Shown piece after piece: positions 14,327-63,520 of a DNA stretch of 64,000 bases. The stretch lies in assembly GCA_963920765.1 (NCBI GenBank), contig OY987242.1, positions 11,620,789-11,684,788 on the forward strand, in the 5' to 3' direction. The stretch comes from Ulota crispa (lineage: Eukaryota; Streptophyta; Bryopsida; Orthotrichales; Orthotrichaceae). Every line of letters begins with the position of its first letter. Positions within the stretch are counted from its first letter, which is position 1. The translations under genes and the position numbers were made by a program. The notes beneath the pieces were generated by a model. It searched no databases. It was given only the letters and a program-made list of their open reading frames with translations, and was not told the DNA's origin.

Positions 14327-14330
14327 TTGA

Positions 14331-15229
14331 CCCTTTAAGGACCACACCCATTTTCAGAAAACCCACTAAAAACAAGGATGACAAATTTAGATGTGGAGCT
14401 AAAGCAAATATGGACCCAATTTGAACAATCCAACCGTATAAATGTGGAGGACACCTTGCTTGTTGTCACATATCAAATTTTCAGCTAGATTTACCATTGG
14501 AGGTGAAATATTTTAATGATTGAGTGAACCATATCCGGAGAACCTTTAGTTTTTCATGCTTGTGTGGTTTTGGATGTTAACATTTCATGCAAGCTTTGAT
14601 TGAAAAGAGCCTTACATTTCTAGAAAGCCAGGGTTCCCACCTTTCCAATAAGTCTAGTTTCACACAAAATAGATAAAAACAACAATCACTAAGAGTAGCT
14701 AAGTGGACAAAAAGGGTCAAAAATCCCACTTTCTTGGCTACCCTTAAAATGTTCTACAAGAAATTTGATAACTGTTATGGAAAATCCAATTGGTGAAAGA
14801 AATCAAGAATTGGCCTTAAACATAGGATGTCAAATTTTAAAAATGAAATGACAACACCATTTCAATAGATCTTTAAATACTATAATTATATTGCTACCAT
14901 ATAGGAAAACAATATAAGCATATTTCTTAAGCAATTTGAATTTTTTTAGGATTGTTCAATTGAAATTTGACATTCTTCTTGCATATTTGATGTATTGAGT
15001 TGTTGCTTTGATCCAACTTTGACAAAAAATGGATACAATTTTTTAGGCCACGCCGTATAAACACCATTACATGTCAACTCACATATCCGATTTCATTGTT
15101 ATTTTTTTAAATGGATGCAAAATTCTTGTGATCACAAGCATTCTTCAAGAACAACTTCCAAATTGTTGAGCAATTTTGATATGTAGGCCAAAAACCACTT
15201 CCAGAGACCAAAATATGGTCGTGTGGTCC
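14331..15229 (+). mobile_element. TTAA element, subfamily A, copy A1
   Basis: Starts CCCTTTAAGGACCACACCC after TTGA (a one-base variant of TTAA) and ends GTGTGGTCC next to TTAA (15230-15233). The interior matches A2 closely ('cttacatttctagaaag', 'tagctaagtggacaaaa', 'gcaaaattcttgtgatcaca'). The final AAAGGG expected at the right end is missing where A2 abuts it. TTAA with CCC...GGG ends is the piggyBac-type signature. No transposase frame is present. Confidence 0.75.
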
Positions 15230-15233
15230 TTAA

Positions 15234-16140
15234 CCCTTTAAGGACCACACCCACTTTCATAAAATCCACAAAAAACAGGGGTGGTCAACTTAGATGCACA
15301 GTTAAATCAAACGCAAATCAAGTTTAAATAATCCAATTGTACAAATGTGAATATCATCTTGTTTGTTGTAATAAATCAAAATTTCAGTTAGATCTATTGT
15401 TGAGGTGAAATATTATAATGATTGAGTGAGCTGTATGTGAAAAATCTCTAGCTTTAATGCTTGCGTGCTTTTGAATATTAACTCTTCATGTAAGCTTTGA
15501 TTGAGAAGAGCCTTACATTTCTAGAAAGGAGGGTTTCCCACCTTTCCAACAAGACTAATTTCACACAAAATAGACAAAAATAGCAATCACTAAGTGTAGC
15601 TAAGTGGACAAAAATGGTCCAAAATCCACTTTCTTTGCTACCCTAAAACGGTTCTACAAAAAAAATTGTCAACTGTTGTGGAAAATTCAATTGTTGAAAA
15701 CAATCAAGAATTGGTTTTAAATGTAGGATGACAAATTTTTAAGATGAAATAACAACACCGTTTTAATAGATCTCCAAACACTACAATTATAATGCTACTT
15801 TATATGAAAACAATACAAGCGTATTTTTGAAGCAATTTGAAAAAATTTAGGATTGTGAAATTTAAATTTGACATTCTTCTTGCATATTTGATGTATTGTG
15901 TTGTTGCTTTGATCCATCTTTGACAAAAAAAATGGACACGTGTTTTAAAGCCAATGTGTATAAGCACCATTATTTGTCAACTCACATACCCAATTTCATT
16001 GTTATTTTTTTAGATGGATGCAAAATTCTTGTGATCACATGCATTCTTCAAGACCAATTTCCAAATTATTAAGATATTTTAATCAATAGGCCAAAAACCA
16101 CTCCCTACAACCAAAATATGGTTGCGTGGTTCTTAAAGGG
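15234..16140 (+). mobile_element. TTAA element, subfamily A, copy A2
   Basis: Bounded exactly by TTAA at 15230-15233 and 16141-16144. It starts CCCTTTAAGGACCACACCC and ends GTGGTTCTTAAAGGG, the reverse complement of the start over about 16 bases. At 907 bp it is about the same length as A1, with the same interior. It shares both flanking TTAA sites with its neighbours. Confidence 0.85.
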
Positions 16141-16144
16141 TTAA

Positions 16145-17111
16145 CCCCTCATTGCCTAAGGGGACAATTTTTGTCCTCTAGCAATCCATTTTTGCAACTT
16201 GAAGTGCTCTAACTTTTGTGTTTATTGTCCAAATTTAGTATAATTTGTTGGCAAAGTTGCGCATACTAGTTTAGTTTATATGATAGAATTTTCAAATCAA
16301 TCTAATACATAATGTGTTTGTGAGAGCCATTCAAAGTTCACAAGGTCACTTTGAGTTTCCCACACTGCATTGTGATGGCTACAACTTTGGGGGCTTGTAT
16401 CTTTTTCACCAAACATTTGTTTTCAATAAATTTGTTGGGTTTTGTTCCCCATAAAGTCTAGTAATTGTGGTAATATTCTCACGTCAATCCAAGTTTTCTT
16501 GGATGTTTGGGGGCAACTCAAAGTTCAAAATCTACACATTTTTACATTACAATGAACTCTAGTGGCTTATAACTTCTTCATAGAAAGTTTGTTTTTAATA
16601 TTAGTTATTAGAAAGGTTGCGTATACTAATCTAGTTATTGTGGTTAAAATTTCATACCAATTCAAGAAGTTATGAGTGAATGAGAATCATCTTAGGAGAG
16701 GGAGGTTTAGCCATAGATGTGATTTTTTGCTACTTTTTCACTATTATTTGACATTTCAAAACAATTTCACAAACAAAATGAGTATATTGATTGATGTTTT
16801 CTTTCACCAGTATGTTTGTATATTGGTTTGCATCACTTTACTTTTCTTTTTTCTTCAATTGAGTAGGTTTAGAAATGAAATTTCACCTCCAAACGTATTT
16901 TTAAAAAAAATTCAACATCTTTTATTAGCACTAAAACATTATAATATTCCAATCTATGTGATCAAATGATTTCAAATTTGATCCACATCATCTACAGCAT
17001 GCACATTATAAGATTGTACGGTTGAGATTTTCATACTCCACCGACATTGAGACTTACAGCACTTGGAAGCACCGATGCCATAAACCCTCTAAGGCCTTAG
17101 GCGATAAGGGG
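16145..17111. mobile_element. TTAA element, subfamily C
   Basis: Bounded by TTAA at 16141-16144 and 17112-17115. Ends are CCCCTCATTGCCTAAGG and (from the right) CCCCTTATCGCCTAAGG. The interior is unrelated to subfamily A, so the shared part is mainly the target site and the CCC(C) terminus. Its one open frame (16676-16969) is hydrophobic and AT-rich, with no recognisable domain. Confidence 0.8.
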
Positions 17112-17115
17112 TTAA

Positions 17116-19298: not shown

Positions 19299-19306
19299 TT
19301 TATTTT

Positions 19307-19719
19307 GGGAATTGATATGTGCACACCAGGGCGTTGATATTTGCACACTCCTACAAGGTAAATTATTGATTTCTACCATCAAAAAGTTGCATTTGAGAAT
19401 TTTGAATTCAGATTTGGACTTTGAGACCATGATTTAGTTTAGAACCATAAAAAAAAAGTTGCAATTGAACAACACCCACTGAAAAAGCTTAGAGAGGGAA
19501 ACGTGTTACTTTTACTTTTGTTTGTAAAAACAATAAGCTTTTTCATTGGATGTTGTTCAATTGCAACTTTTTTTATGGTTCTAAAATAAATCATAGTCTC
19601 TAAGTCCAAATTTGAATTCAAAATTCTCAAATGCAGCTTTTTGATGGTAGAAAAAATCAATACTTTACCCCGGAAGGGGGTGTGCAAATATCAACCCCGA
19701 TGTACACATATCAATTCCC
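19307..19719. mobile_element. hAT-like palindromic MITE, copy 2 (8-bp target duplication TTTATTTT)
   Basis: Ends are GGGAATTGATATGTGCACAC and (from the right) GGGAATTGATATGTGTACAT. The 413-bp element is palindromic nearly throughout. TTTATTTT occurs exactly at both borders (19299-19306 and 19720-19727). It shares interior sequence with 13331-13740 ('ctaccatcaaaaagttg', 'gaacaacaccca.tgaaaaa'). Confidence 0.85.
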
Positions 19720-19727
19720 TTTATTTT

Positions 19728-20951: not shown

Positions 20952-20956
20952 TTTAA

Positions 20957-24408: not shown

Positions 24409-26089
24409 TGAGTTCTAAGGTTTTCTGTTGTGCATTTTTCATTTCCGTTACAAATATGACATATCACCAGAATGTTGATTTTGAGCCTGCCCCTCATTAA
24501 TAGCTCTTCCATTCTCCTGAAATTTTTTTACCAGAAATGTCGGTTCAAGAGAAGAATTTTACCTGCATGCCGAATTTCTTACCAATTTCCAAACCAGTTG
24601 CTACTGCCAAAATATAATCTGTCTGTTATTAAAATACTGACCCCGGATGGCAATTTTGGGCATAACTTCCAAGATAAGTTAGAACAGCCTTTCTCTTGAG
24701 CCTTGCCTCGAATTCAGAAGTAGGAAATAGTACAACAATTACAAAAGCAATCACTTTATCACAATTCATACCTGTAGGGGACAGAATGTACAGTATTTCC
24801 CAAATTGGTCACTAATTTGGGAGGTGTACAAGAGTGGATGGCAACACAAAAAGTACATGTAACTGACTGTATGTGAATTTGAGGAGGTGGATCCTTTGGA
24901 GACTTGCTGTTTTCCACTCGAAAACTGCCAAGAAACGCTGAAAATAGGCAAGAATTTGGAAGCCAACCGACAGTTTTTCACAAATTTTTAGGCCCTTTGT
25001 GGGTTGGGAAACACGTCAGATCGCATAATACAAAACGAGGGCTTTTGTACACGTAGATATAATCGTATAAAATTGCTCTCCTGTGGGAACAGTGGAATCT
25101 GAGTGGAAAGCTACGCGGTATGTACGGTTTTGGCTGCACCTTTATACTGGCTGCTCCATCATACTAGCCTAAAATTGCTACTTTTCCAACCATGTATTCA
25201 TCGTTATGTTACGGTGTATGGTGTTGGGTCTTTTTAATAGAACCTATCCTGGCTCGGCTAATTGGGGCTGACGTTTGCAAGTTTCCTTTCCACGTATGTG
25301 AAAGTCCGAGGAGATGGAATGGGATTTAGGTTCACCGACCATTGGATGGATAGAATTTACTTTGTCACCTCTCGTTGCCTCCCGGCTGGATGAATGGGGC
25401 CAGGGGGCGGGGGCCGGGACTCTGTTACTGCACATTCATGTTTTTGGGTCAAGGTGGAATTTTTTTTGTTTTTCTATATACAAGGGTTTTTTATATTTTT
25501 TATATTTTTTATATTTTTTTAAATGCCCCTAATTTGGAATTGATCGTTTATCCTCTTTCAGGATTCATAAACCAACTTAGGAATTTTGAATCCAAAATTT
25601 GGAGTTCTAGAACCTCATGTAATGTATGACATGTGACATGTAAAACGAGAGGTCAGGTTGCAACATAGAAAGGTGAGCATGCAAGTTTTGACAAAGGACT
25701 TAATTTTTTCCATTTTTTATTTGATTTCATTCATTTCATTTTCTTTCACAACATTCGCAAAATTACTACGATGAGACTTAAAGATTTTTGGCACGTTAGC
25801 CCATTAAACCCTCAAGGTCCAAGCTCCATACGGTTGAATCTTCTATACGCATTTATATTCTTTGTTAGTATGAGTTTTTCCAAAAACACCAGAAAGGCCT
25901 TGCCCACCCCAGAATCGACCATGGACCTTAATGGGTTAACATCGAGAGAGCTTGCATTCTTTCTAGAGATGATGAACAAGCAAATTGAAAGTATGTTATG
26001 TTTATTTTATTGGATAGATTCTATTTATTTAACCATAGTAAGAAACCAATTGAGGTGTACTTTGTGGTAAACTATGGCTAAGTTTTAGA
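24409..26089. other. Spacer with weak coding-like frames
   Basis: No gene is confirmed. The frame at 25771-26070 encodes a segment (around LPTPESTMDLNGLTSREL) that is less AT-biased than its surroundings, and 'aaagtatgtt' follows near 25990 as a possible donor. I do not recognise the protein. Confidence 0.3.
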
Positions 26090-27414
26090 AACCTTTTCAC
26101 CATATAAGCATCCTTTCTAATAAACTTAGATGTGTAGTTGAATCAAATATGGATTCGATTTGAATAATTCAACTGTACAAATGGGAAGAACATCTTGTTT
26201 ATTGTAGAGTACAAACATTTTAATCAAATCTACAAGTGGAGGTGAAATATTATAATGATTGGGTGAGCTATAAGTGGAAAATCTTTAATTTTTCTTACTT
26301 GTGTATTTTTGAATGTTATTGCTTCATGCAAGCTTTGCTTGAGAAAAGCCTATATTTCTATAAAGCTAGATTTTCCACCTTTCCATTAAGACTAGTTTCA
26401 CTCAAATTGGATAAAAATAGCAATCACAAGGTGTAGCTAAGTGGACAAAAAGGGTCAAAACCCCCACTTTCTTTGCTATTCTAAAATGGTTCTACAAAGA
26501 ATTTGATAAATGCCATGGAAAATCTGATTGGTGAAAACAATCAAGATTTGGCCTTAAATGTAGGATGACAAATTTTGAAATTCAAGTGACAACATTATTT
26601 CAATAGATATTCAAATACTTCAATTATATTGCTATCATATAGAAAAACAATACAAGCATATTTCATGAGGAATTTGAACATTTTTAGGACCACCCAATTA
26701 AAATGTCGCATTCTTCTTGGTTATTTGATGTATTTTGTTGTTGCTTTGATCCAACTTTGACAAAAATTGGATACATATTTTGAGGCCATTATGTATAAAC
26801 GCCATTATTTATCAACTCACATGCCAAAATCCATTATTATTTTTTGATTGGATGCAAAATTCTTGTGATCACAAACGCTCTTCAAGAATAATTACAAAAT
26901 TGTTGAGCAATTTTACTCTACATGCCAAAAACCATGTTGTGGAACCAAAGCATGGTCCATTAGGAAAATTTTGAGCCCTCAAAGAGCCCCCAATATTTGA
27001 CAAATCAAGCTATTATTTGGGGGCCAGGCATGCTAGCTTGAGTATGAAAAAAATGACTCATATCTATTGCTATCTTGTATGAAGGACCTTAGCCACATGC
27101 ACAATTTAAAACAATACAAAAGACATGGTATTGATAAAATATGTAAATGAACTCACAAGTCACTATCCAAGTACTTCACTCATTTATACAAAATGAGTAA
27201 AATATAATTAATGGTTCTGTTATACCCACATCTTTGTCCAATTGGGACAATATAACAATATAATTTTCATGATTGCATTGAACCCAAACGGTGGGTGAAA
27301 ATAGGGGATTAGTGATTTTTTTATTGTAATAGGTACATATCTTGGGATCTTTTTGAGATTTTGGAGGGGCTCTTTGAATGCTCAAAATTTTCCTGATGCG
27401 TGGTCTCTAAAGGG
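26090..27414 (+). mobile_element. TTAA element, subfamily A, copy A3 (eroded left end, interrupted)
   Basis: From about 26100 the sequence follows A1/A2 ('aacttagatgtg.agttgaatcaaatatgg', 'gtagctaagtggacaaaa', 'gcaaaattcttgtgatcaca'). The left terminus is degraded. The right end GCGTGGTCTCTAAAGGG is separated from the body by a hairpin element at 26962-27394 and is followed by TTAC. Confidence 0.65.
26962..27394. mobile_element. Foldback element inserted in A3
   Basis: AGGAAAATTTTGAGCCCTCA at the left is matched from the right by AGGAAAATTTTGAGCATTCA, with about 29 bp of inverted repeat ending in CAAAGAGCCCC. It splits the right end of A3, so it is younger than A3. Confidence 0.65.
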
Positions 27415-28107: not shown

Positions 28108-28808
28108 GGTATTGATTCTTATGCAATTTCAACCAAGCATACCAAATTTTGGTTCCTAGAAACCAAAACCCTAGTAATGGTGAATTACTTTGTATTAAAA
28201 TCATGATTTTATATGAAAATTGATTGAAGAAAATTGGTGATGAATTTTTTAGATTTGATTGCATAAATGTGTAGGAAACATCTATATGAGCTTTTGTCAT
28301 GTTAAAATACATACCCCTAAGCAATAAAATTATGATCAACCCCTAAGCAATAAAATTATGATCAACAAAGCGTTCAATGTGGGTTGTGATAGGACCAAAT
28401 TTGTAAAATTGATATTTCTATTGAACTAGTTTTTGGCTAAGTAAACATGTTTTTATGTTCAAAAGTACAAGTTTAGTCTTAGTATATGAGTCAAATAACA
28501 AAAGATGATTATCACAAAGAAACACCAATTTTGCAAAAATTGGACATGTTCATCCTAACATTAAAATTGTTATAAAAGAATCTTAGAAGCTTTTTTGAAA
28601 ATACTCATTAGAAGGAAGGATGTGAGTATAGATGTTTCCTACATGTTTGTGCAATCTAATCTCAAAAACTCATTACCAATTTTCTTCAATCAATTTTTAT
28701 TTAAAATCATGATTTTAATACAAAATAGTTCACCATTAATAGGGATTTGGTTTTTTAGTAATTGAAATTTGGTATGCTTGATTGGGATTGCATAAGAATT
28801 AGATACCA
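28108..28808. mobile_element. 700-bp foldback element, family P copy 1
   Basis: The left arm ('gattcttatgcaatttcaac', 'ccaaattttggttcctagaa', 'atcatgattttatatgaaaa') pairs with the right arm ('ttttaatacaaaatagttcacc', 'gattgggattgcataagaat') around a centre near 28480. The same family occurs at 36711-37900. Confidence 0.7.
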
Positions 28809-28894: not shown

Positions 28895-30365
28895 AAGTAT
28901 TTTACACTAAATACATTATTTAGGTTGCATTAATAATTAGGTTACCTTACCTTGACTATTCCCTTGTCACTTGGAAGCGCATGCAACTCTCTAGATACTA
29001 GGATTTCACATGGTTTACTACTTGTACAATGCTAGTTTGTTTTCCTCAACATTTTGTTGCCAAGTCCTTGATGTTGTTAAAAAAAATTTAGTGCAATAAT
29101 TATTGATGAATTTTTTTGTAATATCAATAAGTATTTATAACTCGTTATTTGTTAAATTGGGAAAAAAACTTAGATTTTGGGACTTTTGAAGGTTTCAGGA
29201 GGCCTCCTAAAATTGAGCTCAACGTTTTTATTGGGTACACGTGTCCTCACTTGAGAGGAGGAATTTGAGAGGGAAAAAATCTTAGTGGCTCAAACTGAAT
29301 CTGATACCTTTGAATCTAGTTTAACCCCTAAAGACCTAAGTGTCCCCTTGGGGGACGAATGGACCTCGGGCATGTACCTATGGCTAAACTAGTTTTTATA
29401 AATTTTTCAAAATTTTTGGAGATTGTGGGGAATTCAAAGATATACGTGCACATCTAATTTTTTCTACATTTTGACATTTATTGAAGAAGTTATGCATGAA
29501 TTTCTGAACAACATGGGAGTGTAGGCTGTCTGGGCAGCCCAAAAAACTTCTTTAAAAATTTCATTTTTCAATATTAAAAATTCGAAATTGATTCTTTAAA
29601 TTATACAAATGTGGGAAGCTTTGAATCATTCAATTTTGATTTATGAGTGAGAAGTTTTGGTTTTTGGGTAGGTATGGGATTTCCAAACCTCCATTCCTTT
29701 TGCCCCTTGTAAAATTTGGTTCTTGAGCTTTTTTTTTTACTTTTTTTTTCCAAGTTGTAGTAGACTAAGATTCCTTGGTTTCACCATTTGGATCAAAAGT
29801 TATTCAGATTTCTCAAATTTACATAAATCCTCCAAGTTTGCCTAGTGTATATGCAAATTTCATGGCCTGATGGCATTGCAGGATTTTATAAAATATGTAT
29901 CACACCTCCAATTCATTTGAAAATTCTCCCACACTTAACTAACTTGGTCTTCTACATGGGAAAAATAAACTTCAACTTTGCATAGAGCAATTTTTTTGAT
30001 ATAGGAGAGGTTGAAGGCTTCTGAATTTTTTGGGCAGCAGGGAAAAAAACTTTTTTTCTGACTTCAGATGTGAATGTCTCACTCATTTACATTTAGAATG
30101 AGCTGATTTTCTTTCCACAAGTACTTGCCATAGTCTAGGGCAAGATCCTACGGTTGGATTTTCCAAAAAAACATGTATTCCTACCTTTCTGCTCATTCCC
30201 CCAAAAGTGGCAGTTTTGAGTGATTTTCACAGAAAAAAAGGTTTGGGCCTTTAGGGGTTAAGGTGACTTTTTGGGTTTAAGGTGGAGTACAAAATGGTAC
30301 CTCTGTTTTTCCCAATTTAACAAATAACACGTTTTATATAGTGTAAAACATCAAGAAGTTAGAGC
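28895..30365 (+). repeat. Duplicated backbone, copy 2, with a different insertion
   Basis: 28895-29140 and 30332-30365 match the backbone at 21607-22345. The insert is bounded by CGTTATTTGTTAAATTGGG (from about 29144) and its reverse complement ending about 30331. It contains TTAA element B2. Confidence 0.6.
29325..30257 (+). mobile_element. TTAA element, subfamily B, full-length copy B2
   Basis: TTAA at 29321-29324 and 30258-30261. Ends are CCCCTAAAGACC and (from the right) CCCCTAAAGGCCC. Length 933 bp. Next to the left end is a short palindrome (GTCCCCTTGGGGGAC). The interior order ('gggcatgtacctatggctaaact', 'gaagctttgaatcattcaa', 'ttccacaagtact', 'agatcctacggttggatt') matches 47615-48543 in the same orientation. 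No open frame of note. Confidence 0.85.
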
Positions 30366-31825: not shown

Positions 31826-32230
31826 AAGGTAGAAGCTCCCAAATGTGACACTTACCTCAGATGTGGTAATTGGGAGGGTCTTTTGAGAATCTAATGGCAT
31901 GGGCTTGTTAGGAAATGGATACAGATGCAAGGAAAATTGTTTTTGGAATTTTGTGAGACCATATGAATAAATTATGAATTGTTGAAGACAATTCCCTAGA
32001 CTTACCTATTGTAGACACTAGACCCTTGAAAATGCAACAACAACAAGACCATGTCAAGCGCATGTCACACCCAATCAAAATTGCCACCTACACAATTTCT
32101 GTTCCTTTATGTCAACTTGTGTGTCTAATTTGGGTGCATTTGTGTCTTGTTTGGGTGCAAATCTGTCTACTTTAGGTTTAATTTTAGATGTCCAAGAACG
32201 GCTGGTGTTGCAATTGGGTGCTCCTACCTT
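31826..32230. mobile_element. TAAGGTAGG-family MITE, copy 4
   Basis: Starts AAGGTAGAAGCTCCCAAATG and ends with inverted 'attgggtgctcctacctt'. Its right end runs into the TTAA target site of B4, so B4 inserted at or beside its terminus. Confidence 0.6.
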
Positions 32231-32232
32231 AA

Positions 32233-33144
32233 CCCCTAAATGCCCAAGGCACCAGATTTTGGTGTCCAAAAATTTTTAGAAAACTTTGAAATCCTGTCAA
32301 AGGCACATATTTTTTTGTTTTGAGGTTTTCCTTTTTGAAAAAGTTGCTTGCTGAAGTCAGCTTCACCATTCAAATTCAACTTTCTCCATATCTTATTCCA
32401 TTTGTTTTTGGTGGAAGGTTAACTACAAGCATACATTTTCTGTTGTGAATAGTGTCATAAATAGTGTCGTGAATGGTGTCCCAAAGCCTATGAGAAGTTG
32501 CGACATTGAAAAGACGGGCATCAAGTTGAGCAAAAGGTAAAGATTTCCCTTGGGCACTCCCTTGGGCAATAAGGGCCTTTTTACTAAAATTTTGACATTT
32601 AACAAAATCTAGAAGTGCTTTTGCACTAATTTCACTTGGAAGGTTTTTGTTATAGAAATTAGAATCCTTTCACCGTTGAAAAATCTTTCATTCATAATGA
32701 TTTTTGGTTAATAATTGAAGCTAAAAAATTCTTTGTGTTAGACAATTGCGTTTTGACAGTTGTGTTGCAAGCTCATTTGTGAAATTGTGGTCATGGATTT
32801 GGAAGAGGGGCCATTGGTTTTGAATTAACAATAATAAACACTAAAGCATCCTATGTGGCTGCTTCCCAATTTTGTATCCAAAAGTTGCCAATTTGCATTA
32901 AAAGTTTCGGGCAGCTCCAAAAAAAGCAAAAAATTCCATACTCATCATCATTCAATCATAAATATCTTAAAATCCGCTTGGCCATTTTGAATTCTTTTTG
33001 GGTAGTGCCATCTAGAAACCTTGAAGTTCAAGATTCTACGGTTACAATTTTATTTTGATGCTTGATAATGATCTTACAAAGACAATTCAAAAACTTCAAA
33101 ACTACCTTCCGAAAACAAGAAAAACACTCTTGGGCATTTAGGGG
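32233..33144 (+). mobile_element. TTAA element, subfamily B4
   Basis: TTAA at 32229-32232 and 33145-33148. Ends are CCCCTAAATGCCCAAGG and (from the right) CCCCTAAATGCCCAAGA. Length 912 bp. The ends are unusually well conserved and the interior differs from B2/H, so this is a distinct subfamily. Confidence 0.85.
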
Positions 33145-33148
33145 TTAA

Positions 33149-35103: not shown

Positions 35104-35418
35104 GAGCATTTCCATTGGTCTGGGCTCTTTCAAAGTTTTCTATCTATTTTGGCTGACCCTCAAGGCCCTTCATCTCTACCCATGCTCTTCAAAAAGGTGG
35201 CCTTGCACTCCAACACGCCCCATAAATAATCAGTTGACTACTTATCAAGGAAATTAGAGGATAAAGTTCACTAAACTTAGGATGAATAGTGTTGAATGAT
35301 GTCTTGAAGGGCCCTTGCTAAACGCAATAGGACAAAGTGTCTTGAGAGGGTTTTGAGAGGGGCCTCAACACTTTTCATCCACTTTGTGAGTATGTTTGAG
35401 CCACTGGTGGAGATGCCC
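35104..35418. mobile_element. Tourist-like MITE (GAGCATC family), chain member 2
   Basis: Starts GAGCATTTCCATTGG and ends CCACTGGTGGAGATGCCC. It is flanked by TAA on the left (shared with member 1) and TTA on the right (shared with member 3), so its own flanks do not match. Confidence 0.6.
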
Positions 35419-35421
35419 TTA

Positions 35422-35958
35422 GGCCATCCGCAATGCACTCGGCAACGATCTCGACAACAATCCTAGTAATTAGGTTTGGTCTTTTAATAGACAATAAAAT
35501 CAACCATAAATTTTTTATGATTTAAAGGGCATTAAAAATATTATTGTGAAAATGTAATAAAATTTAGGTTTGAACATTGACTGATTTAGATACATCCCAT
35601 CAAATGTGAACTAGCTTCCAAAAAAATTAGAGGTCTCTCCAAATCAAATCCAAAAAAAGGAAAATTCAACCAAGGGGACAGTACAATGACACCCCAAAAG
35701 TGTCCCATTGGCTGAATTTTCCTTTTTGGGTTTGATTTGGAGAGACCTCTAAATTTTTTTGGAAACAAGCTAACTTTTGATGGGATGTATCTATATTAGT
35801 CAATGTCCAAACCCAAATTTTATTACATTTTCACAATAATATTTTCAATGCCCTCCAAAGCATAAAAACTTTATGGTAAAATGTATTATCTATTAAAAGA
35901 CCATACCTAATTACCAAGATTGTTGCCGGCACTATTGCCAGGTGCATTGCGGATGCCC
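35422..35958. mobile_element. Palindromic Tourist-like MITE, chain member 3
   Basis: Ends are GGCCATCCGCAATGCACTCG and (from the right) GGGCATCCGCAATGCACCTG. Most of the 537 bp is an inverted repeat around 35690. The inner arms ('ggtctctccaaatcaaa' / 'tttgatttggagagacc') are related to 11740-11960. The right flank is TAA (35959-35961), matching the left flank of member 2 rather than its own left TTA. Confidence 0.7.
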
Positions 35959-36138
35959 TAAGGTAGACAATTGTAATCCCAACCTCTGTTGTAATCTCGT
36001 CTGAATATATGTAGAGAGGGTATTTTGTGCCCAAAATCTAGGCAAGTCATAGATGCTAGATTCTGGGCACAAAATACCCTCCCTACATACATTTGGACGG
36101 GATTACAGCAAAGGTCGGGATTACAATTATCTTCCTTA
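35959..36138. mobile_element. 180-bp hairpin MITE, chain member 4
   Basis: Ends are TAAGGTAGACAATTGTAATC and (from the right) TAAGGAAGATAATTGTAATC. The arms continue through 'gggcacaaaatacccctc'-type inverted sequence ('gggtattttgtgccca' / 'tgggcacaaaataccc'). It ends at the TTAA site of the next element. Confidence 0.7.
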
Positions 36139-36139
36139 A

Positions 36140-41778: not shown

Positions 41779-43032
41779 AGAAACAAACAAATATGTACAC
41801 TTCATAAACCTACATTATGAAATCATCAAGTTTCAAGTCCATGTCAACAAATTTCACACAAAATTATCAATTAGTCGTTTGAAATCTAGTTTAGAAATAA
41901 ATATGAATTTATGAATTGCACAATTAGCACATACATATACATATTTATATATTTATATATTTTAAATTTTATGCATGTGTTTGATTTTGAGTGACTAAGT
42001 TTAATGCGTTCAAGTAAGGATTACTCAATTATCATTTTAGTCATATCTATCTATTGAACATTGAGAACTTATACTACTTCCCTTGTGATATTAAAAATTA
42101 AAATGTTCAAAGCCAATTTCATTTGTTTTTACTTATGTTATCAAATGTATCAATACCGTTTTAGGTTGCCATATTACCTTTGGTGTTTTCGATTCCACAA
42201 TTTTATTGCATTTAGGTTTCTAATATTTGCTATTGCTAGTTATGTGATAAAAAATAAGGTACAACAACAAAAAAACACGAAAATTGTATATCCAAAAACT
42301 AGATAATGTACATACATACTAGGTTGCAGAGCTTCAATGTGTCCTTGGTTTTCTTCAATTTATATAAATTTATACAACTTACAATTTAATGTTTCAGAAC
42401 AATTGATTTTTTTATGATTAGTGATGCCATATAGTTACACATCTTTTCATTCACTTTTTACGTTCATTTGAATTGATTTTTCAAATTCAAACAAATGTTT
42501 TTTTATAGAAATGGAATGCCAATTATTATGTTGTACTTAAGAATACAAATGAAGTGCATAACAAGAACACAGAAATTACACGATCAATCATTTTGCAATC
42601 ATATAGGTTAGTATGCGATATTAAAAAAAGTTTGTAAGAGAATATAATGGACAGAAAGATAGCTCCAAAAGTTAACCACAAACTATTCGAAATGTAAATA
42701 TCACCATTCTCAATAGAATAGGAAAAATTTCAAGTTCCAAATGCAAAATTCAATATCACTAAAACATGATATTTAAGTTCCACTACGTTTTTTTTTTGAC
42801 CTGAACAAAATAAGAAGTTTGTTTACAAACTTACACATTCACAAGAAATCATGCACATGACTATCCTCAAAATTTACATCACAGCTGCATTCAAATTGAA
42901 CTTGATTGCGTATAGTTCCAAATGTGAACATTGTCCCAATTTTTTGAGTATAGTATGAATGCTTACATTCATTTTAGCATCTGACGTAAGTTCTTAAGCT
43001 TTTTAATCCGGTTTTATTAAAATGGTCGTTAA
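41779..43032. other. AT-rich spacer, no gene seen
   Basis: An 81-codon frame (42061-42306) is rich in Phe/Tyr/Ile, as AT-rich DNA gives by chance, and lacks a domain. Confidence 0.4.
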
Positions 43033-44595
43033 CCCCTAAAGGACCAAGGAGCCCACTTTGGGCTTTTTGGATATTTGGGCAAGCAATTTTGTGTAAATAC
43101 TTGAGATAAGATTATGAAAATAAGGGTGTATGTGCTCATATTGAAAAGTTTGCATTCCTTCCAAAAAATTAGAATTGAATAATTTTTGAGTAAGATATGG
43201 TACCATATGTGATTTAGGTGTCAACACAAGAATCTTTAAAAAAAATAAAAACAAAGAGCTTGGGAAGAGTGCTACCCACAAAGTGTTCAAAGGTACTTTA
43301 CACTGGCTTGATTAATGGGCAAAATTTGCATTCAACTCTTCTTCACTACGTAATAACTTCTACTTTACCTTTAATTTTTAAGGAAAAGATTCCTTTGGCA
43401 AGTACTCTACATGGTGTTTTAGGTTTACACCGTACGGATTTTGTAATTGAGATATATTACTATAAGAATCTCTTCACTAAAGTTTTCTTAGAGTAATGAC
43501 AATTCCAACAAAGTAGTTCCCACTTCCAAAAAAAATCCACTATGTTTTAAACATTGGATGATCTTGAGATTTGTGAGGCATATAGCTAACTTCATGTTCA
43601 ACAAGAAATTTAAAATGTGGAAGATATCATTTTGGATGACCAAAACAACAATTGACATTTTAGAGAAGCTTCAAAACAATTTATGATCCTACTTTGAGTG
43701 TTATTAATTAATGAAATATGCCCAAAAACAGTCCAAAATTTTGAGAGGGTGTACACAAGTAAGCTACTAAATAGATCTTACAGCTGAATTATTGGAAAAA
43801 GTTCAAGAATTTGATCCACTAATCATTTTATTGAGAGAGGTTGGTTTCAAGCCTTGTAGAAGAAGAAGTGGTAAAATTTTTGTGACATTTGACTGTACAT
43901 ATTGAAAGTTATGAGCATTTGAAGGGAAAAGTTTTTTTTTTTTCCATTGTGCCCAAAAATTTCAGATGGCTTTGATTGACATTTGCTGATTTTTTTGCAC
44001 TATGGACCTTGAAGTTGTAATTTTATCTTATAGGTTATCTAGTTAGACCTTTGCACACCAATTTTCAAGGCAATCAAAGACATAGAACACATCCTAAAAA
44101 TATTGCAATGCCACTATATGACAAGTTTTGCAAATATAGTATGACATTTTTGAGTGAAGTTTCCCACCACATGATTTTGGGTATGGAAAATCCAAATGGT
44201 GTGTTTGAAGATGAACGTGTACTTCAAATGTCAAAAAAAAAAGAGTTAAAAAACTCAATATCTCTAAAATTTAAAAGCTCCCAAAGCCCAATTTGACCTC
44301 CTAATTGGAAATGAAAGGGGAAATAATGGGGACCACTAGAGCAACATGTGGCAACCCCTCCTTGCCCCCCTTCAAAGTCAATATTTTCTCCCTTGCCCAA
44401 GCTGCCCTTCAAATTGCTTTTGGCCAAAAAAAGCCCATAACTTGTGAACCATGTGACATAATCACATGCTTTTTTGCATCCCACAAACTTTATACATTCT
44501 TGCACACTCATAAAAAGTTTCAAAAATCATGTAAAAATTTGAGATCACACAAGCCCACCCAAAATCCCAAAAGTCCCCAAGGTTGTTTGTTCTAG
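43033..44595 (+). mobile_element. TTAA element G, right end not found
   Basis: TTAA at 43029-43032 followed by CCCCTAAAGGACCAAGGAGCC, identical to the start of B3 for about 35 bases. I could not find a matching right terminus. The phrase 'ccaaaatcccaaaagtcccc' at about 44569-44588 resembles the subterminal region of subfamily B, so truncation near 44595 is likely. The right boundary is approximate. Confidence 0.5.
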
Positions 44596-45178
44596 ATTAC
44601 TGGCTTTGCAGTTCAAAGTTTTCAAAATATAGTCTAGAAAGTAGGTAAAGAATTGAGGGAGTATTAAAATGCTAGAATGACTGAATGAGTGATTTTAATA
44701 TGATTCCCGAAGGTCAGATTGTCTCAGTTTAAGGTTTAATTAAGAGTTTTTAGAAGTTGTAACATGGAGAAGTAAAGGACTACTTTGCACCTGATGTACA
44801 AATAAAGGTTGTAGGCTTTGAAGTTTATAATAAATCCATGTTGTTTTGTTATTGGTACTATCAATTATCAAGCATGTATTAATATTCACTTGAAGGAAAA
44901 CAATGTGCACATTGACTGAACAATGACCAAATATTGATTCTAATAGGTCAATGTGAAATAAAATCCTTTTTTATAAGCACAGTTTTTCCCTAATAAATAT
45001 TTTGAAACTCAAAACCCCACCACTTGTTCTAAATCAATTTCCAAAAATTGTCAAACGGGCTTGAAGTATAATGAACTCAGCAGACATGTATAACACAAAC
45101 ATGTATTTGTTTTGTACTATGCTTGATGATATTGTTTTCCTAGAGCAATTTGTATTAAACTAACCTATATACATATAC

Positions 45179-45224
<46 letters not shown>

Positions 45225-46022
45225 ACCATACTCATTAAAATGGGAGATTGGGCACCTCTCAAAATAACCAAATGAAACATAAAACCTTTCCATTTTAGGT
45301 ATTGAGCTAAATTGCAATACAACTTTCCAATTTTAAGTCAATTTTGAATGGGTTTCTCATGTTAATTTAGCTCAAATCGAGTTGAATTGACATAAAATCT
45401 TTTGTTGAATTTCCTTTAAATTACCTTTCATTTCAATGGAAAATGAGAATGAATATGGTGTTCATTATGTTCATCCAAAGTTAATTACAAAAAAAGCAAG
45501 ATGAAAAAAACTATAATTAATTGACCATATTTGTAGTAATAATATAAAAATGTTGCAATATTTGTTGATATATTGACACAATTCAACATCCATAGCAAAA
45601 ATAACTCGAAAGATTGCAAAAGTGCATGCAAGTACTACTTGCACCTAAACAACAGTTATTGAATTTGCTATTGAATTTGTATTGATTGGTCAATTGATGA
45701 GCATGAGGTGTAGCTGGTAAAATTAGACATATGTAAATTATTGATTTGGAATGATGAGTTTTAAGAGATTTCCTTAATAATCTGTGGACTTAGTTTTTAA
45801 AGTTTGATTGATTATTCATCTCAGACCCGTTGAAGTTGTTGTTAATCTATAATGATTGTATTCTCATAATTTTAGTTAAGTGCAAACTCTAATAATGTTA
45901 GGATTTTGGTTGTTGTAGAATGCAATTACTTGACCAAGCTACTTCCAAAAATAATCATCACCCCAAAAGTGCCTTGAACGCCACTAGTTAAAGTTTGAAG
46001 CGATACATCTACCCCGCAGCGT
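44596..46022. other. AT-rich spacer with a TA microsatellite
   Basis: No gene or other element recognised. Confidence 0.4.
45165..45221. repeat. TA microsatellite
   Basis: About 57 bases of (TA)n, with 'acatatacat' interruptions at the left. Confidence 0.9.
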
Positions 46023-46026
46023 TTAA

Positions 46027-46976
46027 CCCTGTAAAGACCACACACATTTTCCCAAAATTCATTAGAAACCGGGGCAATAAAATTAAATGTGCATTTGAAT
46101 CAAATATGGACCCAATCTAAATAATCCAATCATGCAAATGTGAAGGACACCTTATTTATTGTAACATATCAAAATTTCAACTAAATCTATCGTTGTAGGT
46201 GAAATAGACTATTATAATGATTGGGTGAGCCGTATATGGGAAATCTCTAGTTTTTCATGCTTATGTGGTTTTGAATATTAACGCTTCAAGCAAGTTTTGA
46301 TTGAGAAGGGCCTTATATTTCTAGAAAGTAAGGTTTCCCACCTTTCCAACAAGACTAGTTTCACACATAATAGACAAAAATAGCAATCACAAGATGTAGC
46401 TAAGTGGACAAAAAGGGTCAAAAATCCCATTTTCTTTTGCTACCCTAAAACAATTTGACAAGAAATTTGATAAATGTTACAAAAAATCCAATCAGTGAAA
46501 GCAATCAAAGAATTGGCCTTAAATGTAAGATGATTTTTTCATAAAATAAAATGATGGTATCATTTCAATGGATTCTCAAATACTACAATTGTATAACTAC
46601 CATATAGAGAAACAATACAAACGTATTCCTTAAGGAATTTGAATTTTTTTAGATTGCACAATTGAAATGTGGAATTTGAATTTTTTTAGATTGCACAATT
46701 GAAATGTGGCATTCTTCTTGGATGTTTGATGTATTGTGTTGTTGCTTTGACCCATCTTTGACCAAATATGGATACATATTTTGAGGCCATGATGTATAAA
46801 CACCATTATTTATCAACTCACATATCCAATTCCATTTTTGTTTCTTGGGTTGGATGCAAAATTCTTGTGATCACAAGCGTTCTTCAAGATCATTTTCCAA
46901 ATTGTTGAGCGATTTTATTGTATAGGCCAAAAACTACTCTCCCAAACCAAAATGTGGTTTGGTGGTCTCTAAAGGG
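46027..46976 (+). mobile_element. TTAA element, subfamily A, copy A4
   Basis: TTAA at 46023-46026 and TCAA (one change) at 46977-46980. It starts CCCTGTAAAGACCACAC and ends GGTGGTCTCTAAAGGG. Length 950 bp, the excess being partly a local duplication of about 40 bp ('gaatttttttagattgcaca', about 46640-46710). Confidence 0.8.
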
Positions 46977-46980
46977 TCAA

Positions 46981-50240: not shown

Positions 50241-51327
50241 CACTACAGTCCAGCAGTTTCGGCAGCGGCTGCACTTCTTCTTGGCTGCTGCGCTTGATCA
50301 TACTCCCTCTCCCCCACCTGGCCACCTCCTGCCCTAGCCCCTACTCTTGCCCCGCAACTTGAAGACGATGGCCAGGACACCTGACGCGTCACTGCTTTGT
50401 GGGCAGGGAGTACAAAGGCAGTGAGGGCTCGCCAGCAGGCCCTAGGCAATGCTGCAGCACTCCAAACTCTTCGGCAGCGCTGGCTCGTGGTCCGGTAGCG
50501 AAGAGAGGGACATACGTAGCTCTACATACATACATGTACTCCTGCAGCTCGTGCTGTACGTGATAGTCTTATAAGGTGACCCCGCATGCGTCACTGCAGC
50601 TAATTCCCTCCCCTTGGGCAGCAGCATTCGGGTCTCCCAGCGCGCGAGTGTGTGTGTGCGCGCGTCTTCTTCTATTCCTGGATCTGCTGCCGCTCGTGTG
50701 ACTGTCCGAGCGAGCAACCAGGGGTCCAGGTACTGGCGCCGGACACTGTGCTGCAGGGCCACACTTGCGGAGGGTTACGTGCAACTCCACTCGCATGTGC
50801 GGGTGTCTACAGCAGCAGCTTCAGTCCCTTGGAGTTTCTGTTGTCCCTTGGCGGTGATCCATTGGTCCCAGGTACTCTCGCTTTTGCGACTTGTTCATGC
50901 TCGCTGTTGGCGCCAACGTTTGGCTCTCTCAAATGCTCTTGTCCGGAGAATCGATCTGGTGATGTGTGTTCGAGGCCAGTTGTGAGTACTCGTCACACTT
51001 CAAGCACAGGGTCTCCTTGCCGACTCTGCGAGTGGATTTGCTAGTGATCGGCTCATTGGTTGGTGAGCTGGAGTTGGGTTTTCCATGCTCGGTTGCAATT
51101 CATGGATTCTCTCTAAAGCAATTTGGTGCTTGAGTACTGGTAGTTAGTTCTCACGTGTAACGAAGGCGAAGTAGGGCTTGGCATTCTCCACTGCTTCCCC
51201 AGATAGAGGTCTGGGGATACAATGAGATAGTTTTCTTACTGGAGTACCAGAAGATTTCTGGTTACGGTTATCTACTTGCCGTAGGGCATATCTGCGAGAC
51301 AGCATAAGTTCGGTCGGACTGACGATC
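50241..51327 (+). promoter_or_regulatory. Likely promoter and 5' leader region of the ERF gene
   Basis: GC-rich, CT-rich sequence upstream of the coding start. It includes a perfect TGACGCGTCA palindrome (50382-50391), a second TGCGTCA-type site near 50587, a 'cttataag' stretch (50568-50575) and a (TG/CG) run near 50640-50668. Several short ATG frames precede the main start, including ATG-AGA-TAG at 51222-51230 and a four-codon frame near 51102. If transcribed, these would be upstream ORFs. The transcription start cannot be fixed, and a leader intron is possible. Confidence 0.4.
50382..50391. promoter_or_regulatory. Perfect TGACGCGTCA palindrome (possible bZIP site)
   Basis: Two inverted TGACG half-sites overlap in a 10-bp palindrome about 0.94 kb upstream of the ATG. 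TGACG is the core of plant as-1/C-box type sites bound by TGA-class bZIP factors. Function is inferred only from the motif. Confidence 0.35.
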
Positions 51328-53136
51328 ATGCCGTTACATGACATTCTGAGTGGTCCTCTGCTTGCGAAGCGCAAATGGCATGACGTTACACCTGAGAGTC
51401 CCTCTCTGAAGAAGGAGAAGTGGCGTAATTTTGAGGTACTATCTGACGAACGAGGCAGCTTTAACGACACTTGCTTCCGGTGCTCTGGGCCAGCAGCATT
51501 CCACAATCTGTGCGATCTGTGTCTGTGCCCGACCGTAGAGACGACTTCCGATTGCTCTTTCGATTCCTCAGTGGAAACGAGCTTCTCAGTTCTTGAGATG
51601 GACTCCTTTCGATCTCAAGGAGATCAGTTCTTCAGCGAGAACGTTGATGAATTAAGCCCCACGAGTACTTTCAGCTTCCTCGCAGGTTACGGTGAATCCG
51701 AGACGGAGGTGTCGCCTCTCCCTCACTTGCACTACGACGATGACTCGTCGCCGACTGAGAGTAGCGCTGACATGCACACTGACCTAGACGGCATTGCGGC
51801 GGTGGTGGGACAGACCATATTGTTCGGGAACACTCGAAGTAACGAAGCACAACAAGCCGCCTGTTCATCATCCTTGAGTCAGGCAGCAGGCCTGGGGCGT
51901 CCTTCATGGCCTTCGACAGTAACTCTGCTGCAAGAAGAGCATCATCGAGTAGCATCACCGAACTCGTTCCTAAGCTGGAGCTTTAGTCCATCGTCCCGAG
52001 TAGTAGAGTACCCGAATTGCTACACCGCCGAGAATCTGAGATCTGCACTACAAAATATCATGCCATCGCCTGACAACATCCTCACGGTTGCTAAACCAGC
52101 TGCTGCCGAGATCAAGTCGCGGTTTCTGCACGACGTGCACCGGTCTGTTGAACTTCGGCACCCGAGACTTGCAATGGAGACGCCGAAAGCGCCTGCAGCG
52201 AAGTGTGTGGCGACTACTGGGCGATCTTACAGAGGTGTAAGGAAGCGGCCGTGGGGTCGGTGGTCTGCAGAGATTCGCGATCGCATCGGCCGGTGTCGCC
52301 ACTGGTTGGGGACTTTCGACACTGCTGAAGATGCGGCCAGAGCTTATGACAGTGGTAAGCAATGGAAACCTTACTATGCTTGTGGAAATGCTTCTATGTT
52401 TGCTGATATATTATTTCTACACTGATAGTCTCTCTTGCCTGACGCTCGATCTCTGAGCTAGGTACTTTATTTCTTGACTGTTGACATGATGAAACGAAGA
52501 TTTGGACGTCCTAACATCTCCTTGTTCTCTCCAGCCGCAAGAGCTCTGCGAGGTTCAAAGGCAAAAACCAACTTCGCCTCGCCATCATGCTGTGATGACT
52601 TGAAAGGATTATCAAGGACCGGAGCTGCTCCATCGGCTCAGTTGCCTCCAGTTGCACGTAACTCTCTACCTTCCTCTCGTGGCAGAACGAATCCGAGAAG
52701 CACTTCAGCTTCGCAAAAACGATCAGGAAAAAGTACCAAGCGGAGTTCTAAAACTAGTAGCGCGAAAGGAACGACGACGATTCCTGTAAGCAACGAAGTG
52801 AGGACGTCGGAATTCATGACCCATCCTCCGAAGAAAGGTGTGCCTTTGCAGAGTACGATGACCACGCAGTGTATTTCAAGCGATGCAGTAGTACCTGCCG
52901 GGGTTGTTGATTGTGGTACCGTTACCGTGGCCAGATCACTGGAACTGGACTTAAAGCTTGGCTTTTGCAGTGCCAAGTCGTGCAGTTCCAGCCTGGAGAG
53001 CACACCAGACTCGACCGTGACGTACCAGTCACCCGAGTCGTGCTCCTTTTCTTCCTTTTCTACTGTCCCGGCACTGAATGGGAGCTCACCTTTTTCGCCG
53101 GGTTCCCCTCCGCTGTCATGTTACCCATGGCGCTAG
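51328..53136 (+). CDS. AP2/ERF-type transcription factor with C-terminal LxLxL (EAR) motif, two exons
   Basis: Predicted nuclear DNA-binding protein of 542 residues, exons 51328-52354 and 52535-53136. The ATG at 51328 is the first after an in-frame stop at 51223-51225; the end is TAG at 53134-53136. One AP2 domain spans about residues 300-356: [12 protein letters not shown], then SAEIRD, then [16 protein letters not shown], then [19 protein letters not shown] marks the ERF rather than the DREB branch, and [14 protein letters not shown] resembles group VIII-like ERFs. The usual Pro after AEIRD is Arg. A basic Ser/Lys/Arg-rich stretch follows. LELDLKL at 478-484 (52939-52959) fits the LxLxL EAR repression motif, which in known ERFs recruits TOPLESS-type corepressors. 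Residues 49-67 hold five cysteines (C-x2-C-x9-C-x2-C-x-C). The long acidic, Ser-rich region before the AP2 domain matches nothing I know. By family, target sites would be GCC-box like. Codon composition is far richer in GC than the surroundings. Confidence 0.88.
52355..52534 (+). other. 180-bp phase-1 intron within the AP2 domain
   Basis: The donor GTAAGC follows ...GACAGTG. A CTAAC branch-point-like motif at 52511-52515 is followed by a pyrimidine tract and CCAG. Splicing joins codon 343 as G|CC (Ala) and restores ..AYD-S-A-ARALRG.., the expected AP2 consensus, so the junction is fixed by homology. If the intron is retained, translation runs on to a stop at 52423-52425. That would give a 365-residue product lacking the end of the AP2 domain and the EAR motif. 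Confidence 0.9.
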
Positions 53137-60166: not shown

Positions 60167-60170
60167 TTAG

Positions 60171-61073: not shown

Positions 61074-61119
61074 TTAAACCGGCTAAGTTTTGCAGGATTT
61101 CTATAGAAAAAGAACAAGT

Positions 61120-61529
61120 AAGGCAAGAGGCTCAAAAACAACTTAGGCATTTTGAACCGCCATGTAGAGTGCTGTGAAATGGTGCATTGGGTGGTTCTTA
61201 AATTGGCCTCTTACAATCATTGAATGCATGGAAGAAAAATTGTTTTTAATTGCAAAGAGCCAATCATTCTCCTTGCTTCCCCAAATCTCTTCACAACTTG
61301 CAAGTGAACGGTTCTTGGAAGGTTTAGGGTCATAAATAGGGCCTATGACACATGCACTTTGAAAATTCATAAGTAATTCAAAAATGCTTCAAAAAATATG
61401 AAACAACTTGTGTTACATTCTGTATCTATTTCTCTCTTTTTAAAAAATGAACTAAAAATTCTCCTATCCATGGAAAACCATGAAAAAGGAATGAGCCCTT
61501 AGATGGTCAATTTTGGAGCCTCCTACCTT
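61120..61529. mobile_element. TAAGGTAGG-family MITE, copy 8
   Basis: Starts AAGGCAAGAGGCTCAAAAAC and ends 'ttttggagcctcctacctt'. The right part ('tccatggaaaaccatgaaa', 'agcccttagatggtca') is the reverse complement of the 39741 copy's left part. Confidence 0.6.
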
Positions 61530-61879
61530 ATACACCTAAATCATTATGTGAACTTTGCAATGTTAAAATTGAAAATTTCAGCTTTTTAGCAGTGTTATTA
61601 ACCACTTTGAGAGCTAAAAGTGAAAATTGTATTTGGGATCAGTGCTCCCTGGCTCCTCCTGCTCCCCTGCCCCTCTTCCAAATCGGTTGAGTGTAAGGCT
61701 GTAAGCGCTGTATTAAATGACTTCCCTTCCTTACACGATACACTTTTCTTCTTGAAAAGAGCAACCTCCTCTTGTTTTCTGTCTCCTTTTCTGTACAATG
61801 AACTGACGACATCTCATTTTGTGTGCTCCTCGAGAGCAATTTTTGCAAATATGCTGAATTCAGCAAAAAGTAAGCTTAT
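61530..61879. other. Short spacer, no gene confirmed
   Basis: Overlapping frames (61620-61886 plus, 61598-61866 minus) have no recognisable domain. Confidence 0.35.
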
Positions 61880-63516
61880 CCCCTAAATGACCGAGCAACT
61901 TTTTCATCAAAAACTCTCCAAAACTGCCATTTTTAGAGCATCAACCGAATTTGAAAGTAAAAACATTTTTATGCATATCTGACCGTAGGATCTTGTAGTA
62001 GAATAGTTTTAGAAGAAGTAAAAAAAAAAAATTTAGAATTTTTATTGCATGGATCAGAAGATAGAATGGTTTGAATATTCAAAAATGTCTTGTGAAAAAC
62101 AGAGCAGCTACCCTTTAGAAGGTGAAGTTCTGAAGGAAAAAAGGCCATGTAGGTGGTTCTTCCTTAGGTTCCTTATTCCACTTAACCCCTAAAGGACCTA
62201 GCCCCCTTTTCGGGGACAAATGGGATTTTGGGCATGTACCTATGGCTAAACTACTTTGCGTGATTTTTTGAAACTTTTATGGGAGATGGGGAATTCAAAG
62301 ATTTGTGTGGGCATCTAATTTTTTCCTCATTCCAACATTTATTGAAGAAGTCAAAAATGAATTTATGAGAATTTGAGTTTGGCGGGCAGCCCAAAAACTT
62401 CTTTAAAAATTGCATTTTTTTTAAATAAAATTTTGAGGTTAGTTCTTTAGACTTATGTATATGTGGGAAGCTTTGAATCATTCAATTCTAATTGATGAGA
62501 TGAAAGTTATGAGAAGTTTTAGTTTGCGTGTAGGCATTCTTTTGAGATTCTTTACACATACCCGCAAACTAAAACTTCTCATAACTTTCATCTCATCAAT
62601 TAGAATTGAATGATTCAAAACTTCCCACATATACATAAGTCTAAAGAACTAACCTCAAATTTTTATTTTTTAAAAATGAAAATTTTAAAGAAGTTTTTGG
62701 GCTACCCGCCAAACTCAAATTCTCATAAATTCATTTTTAACTTCTTCAATAAGTGTCGGAATGAGGAAAAAGTTAGATGCTCACATAGATCTTTGAATTC
62801 CCCATCTTCCATAAAAGTTTAAAAAAATGACACAAAGTAGTTTAGCCATAAGTACATGCCCAAAATCCCAAAAGTCCCCCAAGGGGACTTTGGTCCTTTA
62901 GGGGTTAAGTAGGGTACATGTCAAAAAAGTTTTAAATCATTTGGAATTGTACAATATGTGGGAAAAAAATAGTAAGTAAAATGAAGTAGAGAATAATTCA
63001 AAAAAAAAATGTTAAGAATTTAATTATGTAAATAAAAATGCCAATCCCAATGGTTGTAATGTTGTAATAAACAATCTACATCCTTGTGTTTTGTTTTTTT
63101 TTTCCAAAATATTGAAAATTAAGTAAACTCATAAAGGACTTCAAAGTTTGTTTGAGAGTAGAGAATCCATAATTGCCCGCAAACAAAACTCCTCATAACT
63201 TTCATCTCGTTGATCAAAACGGAATGATTCAAAGCTTTTCTCATTCACATAAATCTCCTAAATCAACTTCAAAATTTTGTTTTTGAAAAAAATAAAATTT
63301 TAAAATTTGCCCAAGCTGCCCGCCAAGTGAAAAAACAATATATTAGGTCATATCATCTTATTCATAATTCCAAATATCATGAAATTTAATGCATATGAAA
63401 GATAAACCTTGTTCCCACATTCTATCAAAATTTCAACCTAGAACATGAAAATCTCCAATAAGAGATACTTGCCCAAAATTGCTATGTTGCTAAAAGGGGG
63501 CTTGGTCCTTTAGGGG
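61880..63516 (-). mobile_element. TTAA-type element J with TTAT duplication, interrupted by element I
   Basis: TTAT directly flanks both ends (61876-61879 and 63517-63520), a 4-bp direct repeat differing from TTAA in one base. Ends are CCCCTAAATGACCGAGC and (from the right) CCCCTAAAGGACCAAGC. Removing element I and one copy of its TTAA leaves 914 bp. The interior resembles copy F ('gggaaaaaaatagtaagtaaa', 'gttgtaataaacaatcta'). Confidence 0.85.
62186..62904. mobile_element. TTAA element I, near-perfect snapback, nested in J
   Basis: TTAA at 62182-62185 and 62905-62908. Ends are CCCCTAAAGGACCTAGCCC and (from the right) CCCCTAAAGGACCAAAGTC. The two halves, about 350 bp each, are near-perfect reverse complements around a short loop near 62530-62560. 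Both halves match the left part of copy H, so the element is two inverted copies of one end. Confidence 0.9.
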
Positions 63517-63520
63517 TTAT

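Follow-up and report, generated by a model that had tools for sequence, protein, structure and literature searches.

A cluster of TTAA-bounded short elements, probably of piggyBac type, in a moss nuclear genome

The stretch analysed here (the window) comprises 64,000 bases within contig C1 of Ulota crispa, from an assembly of 274.8 Mb in 157 contigs that was searched as a whole. Between positions 14,327 and 63,520 the window carries a series of short elements bounded by TTAA and by CCC...GGG ends, which a preliminary description made from the sequence alone had taken for about 18 piggyBac-type miniature inverted-repeat transposable elements (MITEs), mobilised by an unseen transposase.

Short elements of the window and their genome-wide copies

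Sixteen of the 18 listed elements are two-ended; the other two are 26090, a relic without ends, and the single end listed earlier at 43033 (here 43029). As had been described for most of them, TTAA or a one-base variant bounds both sides, with TTAA on the two sides in 10 of the 18 and a single-base departure from it on one side or both in a further six. As for the border rule of a CCC(C)T start and an AGGG(G) end, 13 of the 16 two-ended elements have CCC on the left and GGG on the right, and 14327, 40842 and 55569 depart from this. A length of 0.90-0.96 kb, close to the 0.9-0.95 kb first given as frequent, was found in 10 of the 16 (61876-63520 being counted as 922 bp, with the nested 62182-62908 subtracted). 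The elements cover 15,300 of 64,000 bases, or 24% of the window (relic 26090 included, 43029 excluded), which agrees with the earlier estimate of a quarter. They are listed below with left and right flanking bases, the families being those defined by BLAST among the window elements.

14327-15233, plus strand: family A element, 907 bp, TTGA/TTAA; right terminal AGGG missing; adjoins the next element
15230-16144, plus strand: family A element, 915 bp, TTAA/TTAA
16141-17115, plus strand: element, 975 bp, TTAA/TTAA, ends CCCCTCATTGCC/CCCCTTATCGCC; TTAA in common with the 15230 element; ends resemble those of transposase-bearing locus L039
20409-20955, plus strand: family B element, 547 bp, TTAA/TTTA
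26086-27000 (approximate), plus strand: family A relic, interior only, no recognisable ends
29321-30261, plus strand: family B element, 941 bp, TTAA/TTAA; empty relatives at L039, L014 and L053
30675-31593, plus strand: element, 919 bp, TTAA/TTAA
32229-33148, plus strand: family C element, 920 bp, TTAA/TTAA; both ends in common with the 5.7-kb piggyBac element of L043
36136-36499, unstranded: element, 364 bp, TTAA/TTAA; inverted-repeat match weak past the first bases
39215-40544, unstranded: element, 1330 bp, TTAT/TTAA
40842-41778, minus strand: family B element, 937 bp, TTAA/TTAA; right end CTCC
43029-43066, plus strand: single left end, 38 bp identical to the 30675 end; right end not found
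46023-46980, plus strand: family A element, 958 bp, TTAA/TCAA
47611-48547, plus strand: family B element, 937 bp, TTAA/TTAA; empty relatives at L033, L038 and L030
55569-56755, unstranded: element, 1187 bp, TTAA/TTAA; left end TCC, by eye like the right end of transposase locus L040
60167-61077, minus strand: family A element, 911 bp, TTAG/TTAA
61876-63520, unstranded: host element (parts family B), 922 bp net, TTAT/TTAT; interrupted by 62182-62908
62182-62908, unstranded: family B element, near-palindromic, 727 bp, TTAA/TTAA; nested in 61876-63520; empty relative at L052
25804-25939, unstranded: possible nineteenth element, 136 bp, TTAA-flanked, ends ACCC/CCC; absent from the earlier list

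The BLAST comparison bears out the claim of several subfamilies with unrelated interiors. Family A consists of 14327, 15230, 26090, 46023 and 60167 (78-85% identical) and family B of 20409, 29321, 40842, 47611, 62182 and parts of 61876 (about 73-83% identical), while family C is represented in the window by 32229 alone. The remaining elements have no window relative or only an end in common, as 30675 and 43029 have with their 38 identical terminal bases. Three elements are chained at 14327-17115 through shared boundary TTAA, and because 14327 is without its right terminal AGGG, the chain may have formed by nesting or recombination. Elsewhere in the genome, six exact pairs of the common end stand back to back on one TTAA. 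At least one frame of 100 amino acids or more, with a length of 120 amino acids, overlaps a listed element (36136-36499).

As a chance baseline, we used 40 dinucleotide shuffles of the window. Window ends at two mismatches or fewer from TTAACCCCTAAAGG number 23 (shuffles: mean 0.5, maximum 2), so that a chance origin of the end motifs is rejected; TTAACCC and GGGTTAA together occur 29 times (mean 11.6, maximum 17), and TTAA starts at 452 of the 64,000 positions. Genome-wide, TTAACCCCTAAAGG occurs exactly 15,411 times, and its reversed control once. Eight of these exact ends lie in the window, five on one strand and three on the other, against a genome average of about 3.6 per 64 kb, which makes the window about twofold rich; scaling the 16 window elements by the ratio of this one end type suggests, very roughly, 30,000 elements in the genome. 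The family A end type TTAACCCTTTAAGGACC has 669 exact occurrences (control, 0). For the 727-bp element, 40 places of full or near-full length were scored, window copy included, as the best of 7151 candidates, and for the 920-bp element 32229-33148, 40 places near query length, its own copy included, as the best of 2290. The other 39 best-scored copies are 92-94% (727-bp) and 88-91% (920-bp) identical to the window copy; since only the best candidates were scored, these identities are those of the closest copies, and the evenness of length is biased. With this bias in evenness, both families display the high copy number and even length of MITEs, and the 920-bp form is a repeated family in its own right.

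Transposase loci and their relation to the short elements

The DDE_Tnp_1_7 (PF13843) transposase that the preliminary description had predicted is present in the same genome, where it lies in TTAA-bounded elements with the same end type at four of eight loci. The search gave 120 matches from 528 candidates (116 scored), those listed being all above the curated cut-off, with a best score of 254.5 bits against 22.4; 14 control genomes gave no PF13843 match. Eight transposase loci were read at about 7 kb each. Ten frames or frame pieces were run against Pfam, and all eight that come from the transposase loci match DDE_Tnp_1_7. The four loci with a TTAA-bounded end pair around the piggyBac frame are as follows.

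L043: element of 5746 bp, ends matching at 15 of 16 positions; nested repeat of about 0.4 kb; one stop in the piggyBac frame
L075: element of 5230 bp, ends matching at 14 of 16
L041: element of 5308 bp, ends matching at 13 of 16
L039: element of 5027 bp, ends matching at 12 of 16

L041 and L075 form one family, 89-93% identical, in which whole-locus similarity begins and stops at the TTAA ends. The right end of L074 is clear and resembles those of 29321 and 47611, its left end is tentative, and L040 and L076 have a candidate right end only. Beside the piggyBac frame of L074 lies a microsatellite of about 600 bp (4573-5193 of that locus), which reads HTYIHTYI... in frame. The open frame of 389 amino acids at L042 matches bat piggyBat (9c0f) with an E-value of 2.6e-24 and 6x67, which we take to be the moth piggyBac transposase, with an E-value of 7.6e-20. 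D268, D346, D447 and D450 of 6x67, presumably the catalytic residues, align with aspartates in the L042 frame (counted by hand, in one frame and at a locus with no paired ends).

The closest tie between a coding and a short element concerns 32229-33148. Counted inward from the terminal TTAA, 61 bp at its start and 553 bp at its finish match the respective ends of the L043 element at 85-86%. Judged by this alignment, 32229-33148 is related to a piggyBac coding element and has lost internal sequence, but it is not a simple deletion of L043. The ends of L039 are like those of 16141-17115, a likeness that does not reach far inward. A long match to a transposase element is thus confined to the subfamily of 32229-33148, and the ties of 16141, 29321/47611 and 55569, by ends alone, are tentative.

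The transposase frames share 26-45% amino-acid identity across lineages (six loci), compared with 84% between L041 and L075, the two members of one family, and at this level of identity several old lineages seem to coexist. The ends of the coding elements differ as well, reading CCCCTAAATGCC, CCCCTTGAGGAC and CCCCTCATCGCC, the first and third of which resemble different window subfamilies, and these different end types likewise favour several lineages. It is therefore probable that several piggyBac lineages, each with its own non-autonomous offspring, stand behind the window elements instead of one, a view that refines the piggyBac attribution and does not compete with it; however, the outer CC(C)CT is common to the coding-element ends, and cross-mobilisation is possible. 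Of the earlier claim that one unseen transposase had mobilised all the elements, the presence of a piggyBac transposase in the genome stands; a single mover for all of them is a supposition, and several diverged lineages are present.

Target-site duplication

The genome shows the TTAA preference whose absence the preliminary description had named as speaking against piggyBac: 3038 of 3614 exact CCCCTAAAGGACCAAG ends (84%) genome-wide lie directly after TTAA. In the 727-bp family, TTAA is found at both ends in 27 of 30 copies (window copy included) and a one-base variant at one end in the other three; the 20 bp flanking the copies on the outside differ by eye. From 71 candidate end pairs in the available sequence, insert-free relatives of the flanking DNA emerged for nine elements, of which 29321, 47611 and 62182 belong to the window. 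These nine were left after filtering 26 junction-crossing matches, from which we dropped the self or overlapping matches of L012_1256_2227 on L012, of L028_1501_2392 on L028 and of window element 15230 on itself, as well as L009, which is the place of window element 62182, and the ambiguous L012_1256_1497. In the empty relatives the flanks join at one 4-bp site, with small gaps further out; such relatives document the insert-free state of the site and do not bear on seamless excision.

An empty site reading TTAA is by itself compatible with duplication of TA, and we therefore compared copies at variant sites. Copies starting with TTATCCCCTAAAGGACC number 107, and the loci of the first 30 listed were read. 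In the 22 with a right end, the TTAT start is followed by TTAT in 6, TTAA in 10 and other bases in 6, while 38 end pairs starting with TTAA end in TTAT in none, TTAA in 34, CTAA in two, TTAG in one and TAAA in one. TTAT-TTAT pairs are thus in excess (6/22 versus 0/38; Fisher p 0.0015), which indicates that the duplication is direct and that it includes the fourth base. The 38 control pairs exclude the selected loci, and a 43-pair set including them also gave no TTAT; the 38 are not all independent, as near-palindromic copies are readable on either strand and L009 duplicates a window place. Both empty relatives of one copy, L056, read TTAA, and its left TTAT is therefore a later mutation.

Tc1-like elements duplicate TA, and a superfamily of this Tc1/mariner type, in which a fixed T and A beside the TA mimic TTAA, is a very improbable source of the window elements. 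Empty sites reading TTAA fit it equally well, and the moss Physcomitrella is known to have Tc1-like elements (PMC4054914). However, the fourth base is duplicated, window element 61876-63520 itself reads TTAT/TTAT, and the transposase of coding elements bounded in this way is of piggyBac type (Tc1 families were not searched for). Still less probable is that TTAA is the outermost portion of the terminal inverted repeat in elements lacking any fixed duplication, the piggyBac genes being bystanders, because, although TTAACCC is common to the subfamilies and most of these are without an identified parent, the empty relatives retain a single copy of the site, the ATAA predicted opposite TTAT occurs in 1 of 22 copies against 6 of 22 with direct TTAT, and L043 ties a piggyBac frame to 32229-33148 at both ends. 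Neither of the two outcomes named beforehand as speaking against piggyBac came about. The first, copies without a TTAA preference, is contradicted by the genome-wide ends, and the second, duplication of TA only or TTAA as inverted-repeat bases, by empty relatives that join at about 4 bp and by TTAT directly repeated. What is found instead is the TTAA target-site duplication of the piggyBac superfamily, together with terminal inverted repeats beginning CC[C/T]T, the inverted repeat being weak in 36136-36499.

Proposed history of the elements and comparison with known systems

We are highly confident that the elements are non-autonomous, MITE-type members of the piggyBac superfamily in a moss nuclear genome, moved by the piggyBac transposases of relatives of 5-6 kb. 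In the most likely mechanism, a piggyBac DDD transposase from such relatives elsewhere in the genome would have acted by binding to the CCC(C)T...AGGG(G) ends, excising each element and reinserting it at TTAA, with duplication of the four bases. The short forms would have arisen from coding elements by loss of the interior, a step supported for one subfamily and presumed for the parentage of most, and would then have multiplied to thousands of copies, some of them into each other.

Several results weigh against this piggyBac reading. Only 10 of the 120 PF13843 matches are without an internal stop, and with so few stop-free matches present transposition activity is doubtful. No end pair was obtained for L040, L042 or L076, and that of L074 is tentative. 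Among the eight transposase loci there is no parent for family A (14327, 15230, 46023 and 60167), and the middle 306 bp of 32229-33148 are unmatched in L043, so that L043 is a relative and not the direct parent of this element. TTAA does not precede 576 of the 3614 exact CCCCTAAAGGACCAAG ends. The empty relative reads exactly TTAA for only four of the nine elements, the site being one base off in three and two bases off in two, and two empty relatives have one extra A at the join. In the TTAT comparison, 8 of the 30 copies yielded no right end, and 10 of the remaining 22 ended in TTAA.

The attribution of the window to a plant genome in the preliminary description is borne out. A frame of 399 amino acids at 51226-52425, with an AP2 domain match near its end, probably encodes a transcription factor; as the match reaches only position 46 of 54, an intron may follow. 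On C157, plastid psaB is nearest to 8htu, 6l35 and 7ksq (1708-1712 bits), which we take to be Physcomitrium patens chains, with 9lut at 1673 and the following chain at 1630 behind them; its DNA had no match in the plasmid collection. A further 46 smaller psaA/psaB matches on large nuclear contigs resemble nuclear insertions of plastid DNA. The window also holds other long inverted repeats at 13329-13743, 28160-28753, 35417-35963 and 36893-37405, with arms of 127-212 nt that are 85-92% complementary; L043 contains a relative of the first of them, through 19307-19719. Tandem sequence at 1028-1187, 4699-4843 and 45147-45231 comprises a 21-bp repeat and two long arrays rich in TA, and an Rfam scan of the window gave no match at gathering score.

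piggyBac is known mainly from animals. The earlier statement that the superfamily is seldom reported in plants fits the literature in that a C-fern genome table gives 1230 PiggyBac copies at 0.00% and a feather grass genome one PiggyBac copy of 75 bp, but two papers name plants without detail, one stating that piggyBac was isolated from insects, fungi and plants (PMC10813416) and the other, a review, placing PiggyBac among the class II superfamilies in plants (PMC10794571). Endogenous piggyBac in moss was not found in the titles and abstracts retrieved from openly licensed literature, which is a weak absence; the hit in a paper on the moss Niphotrichum is the word 'piggybacking'. The kind of element is already known, and what seems out of the ordinary is the host and the scale, with the reservation that published lists include piggyBac for plants. 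A piggyBac set native to a plant, with thousands of non-autonomous ends and with coding relatives, would extend the range of hosts on record for the superfamily, would make it possible to trace in a plant how MITEs derive from coding elements, and would raise the issue of whether it reached mosses by vertical descent or by transfer. According to a 2023 review, all plant DNA transposons leave an excision footprint, and moth piggyBac serves as an imported plant tool (PMC10905368). We give even weight for and against a wider proposal, namely that mosses host old, diversified endogenous piggyBac lineages in which interior loss and cross-mobilisation have produced, very roughly, tens of thousands of MITEs, making them a main architect of the genome and a native, footprint-free plant transposon.

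The window elements and their coding relatives are like the piggyBac superfamily as known from moth piggyBac and bat piggyBat in their DDE_Tnp_1_7 domain, four aligned aspartates, TTAA duplication and CCC...GGG ends. Unlike moth piggyBac, they reside in a moss and fall into several diverged lineages in one genome. Wuneng, a MITE, and Microuli, a miniature subterminal inverted-repeat transposable element (MSITE), are both presumably of rice. They generate TTAA duplications as here and are short, with no transposase named for them, and we liken them by description only (PMC2872659). The Tc1-like elements of Physcomitrella, although of another superfamily, offer a parallel as a cut-and-paste group of animals and fungi later met in moss (PMC4054914). 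The coding elements reach 5.0-5.7 kb at the four two-ended loci, one of them with a nested repeat, whereas piggyBac measures about 2.5 kb (2472 bp; PMC10813416). Among short elements, there is also a likeness to the CMITEs of corals, which are piggyBac-type MITEs with TTAA duplication, the CC[C/T]T terminal motif of piggyBac-type elements, coding relatives in the genome and an empty allele (PMC2872659). However, CMITEs are about 100 bp long, with a conserved interior under differing ends, and MITEs are usually below 500 bp (PMC2872659), whereas most of the elements described here measure about 0.9 kb, their interiors are unrelated, and such ends number in the thousands in the genome.

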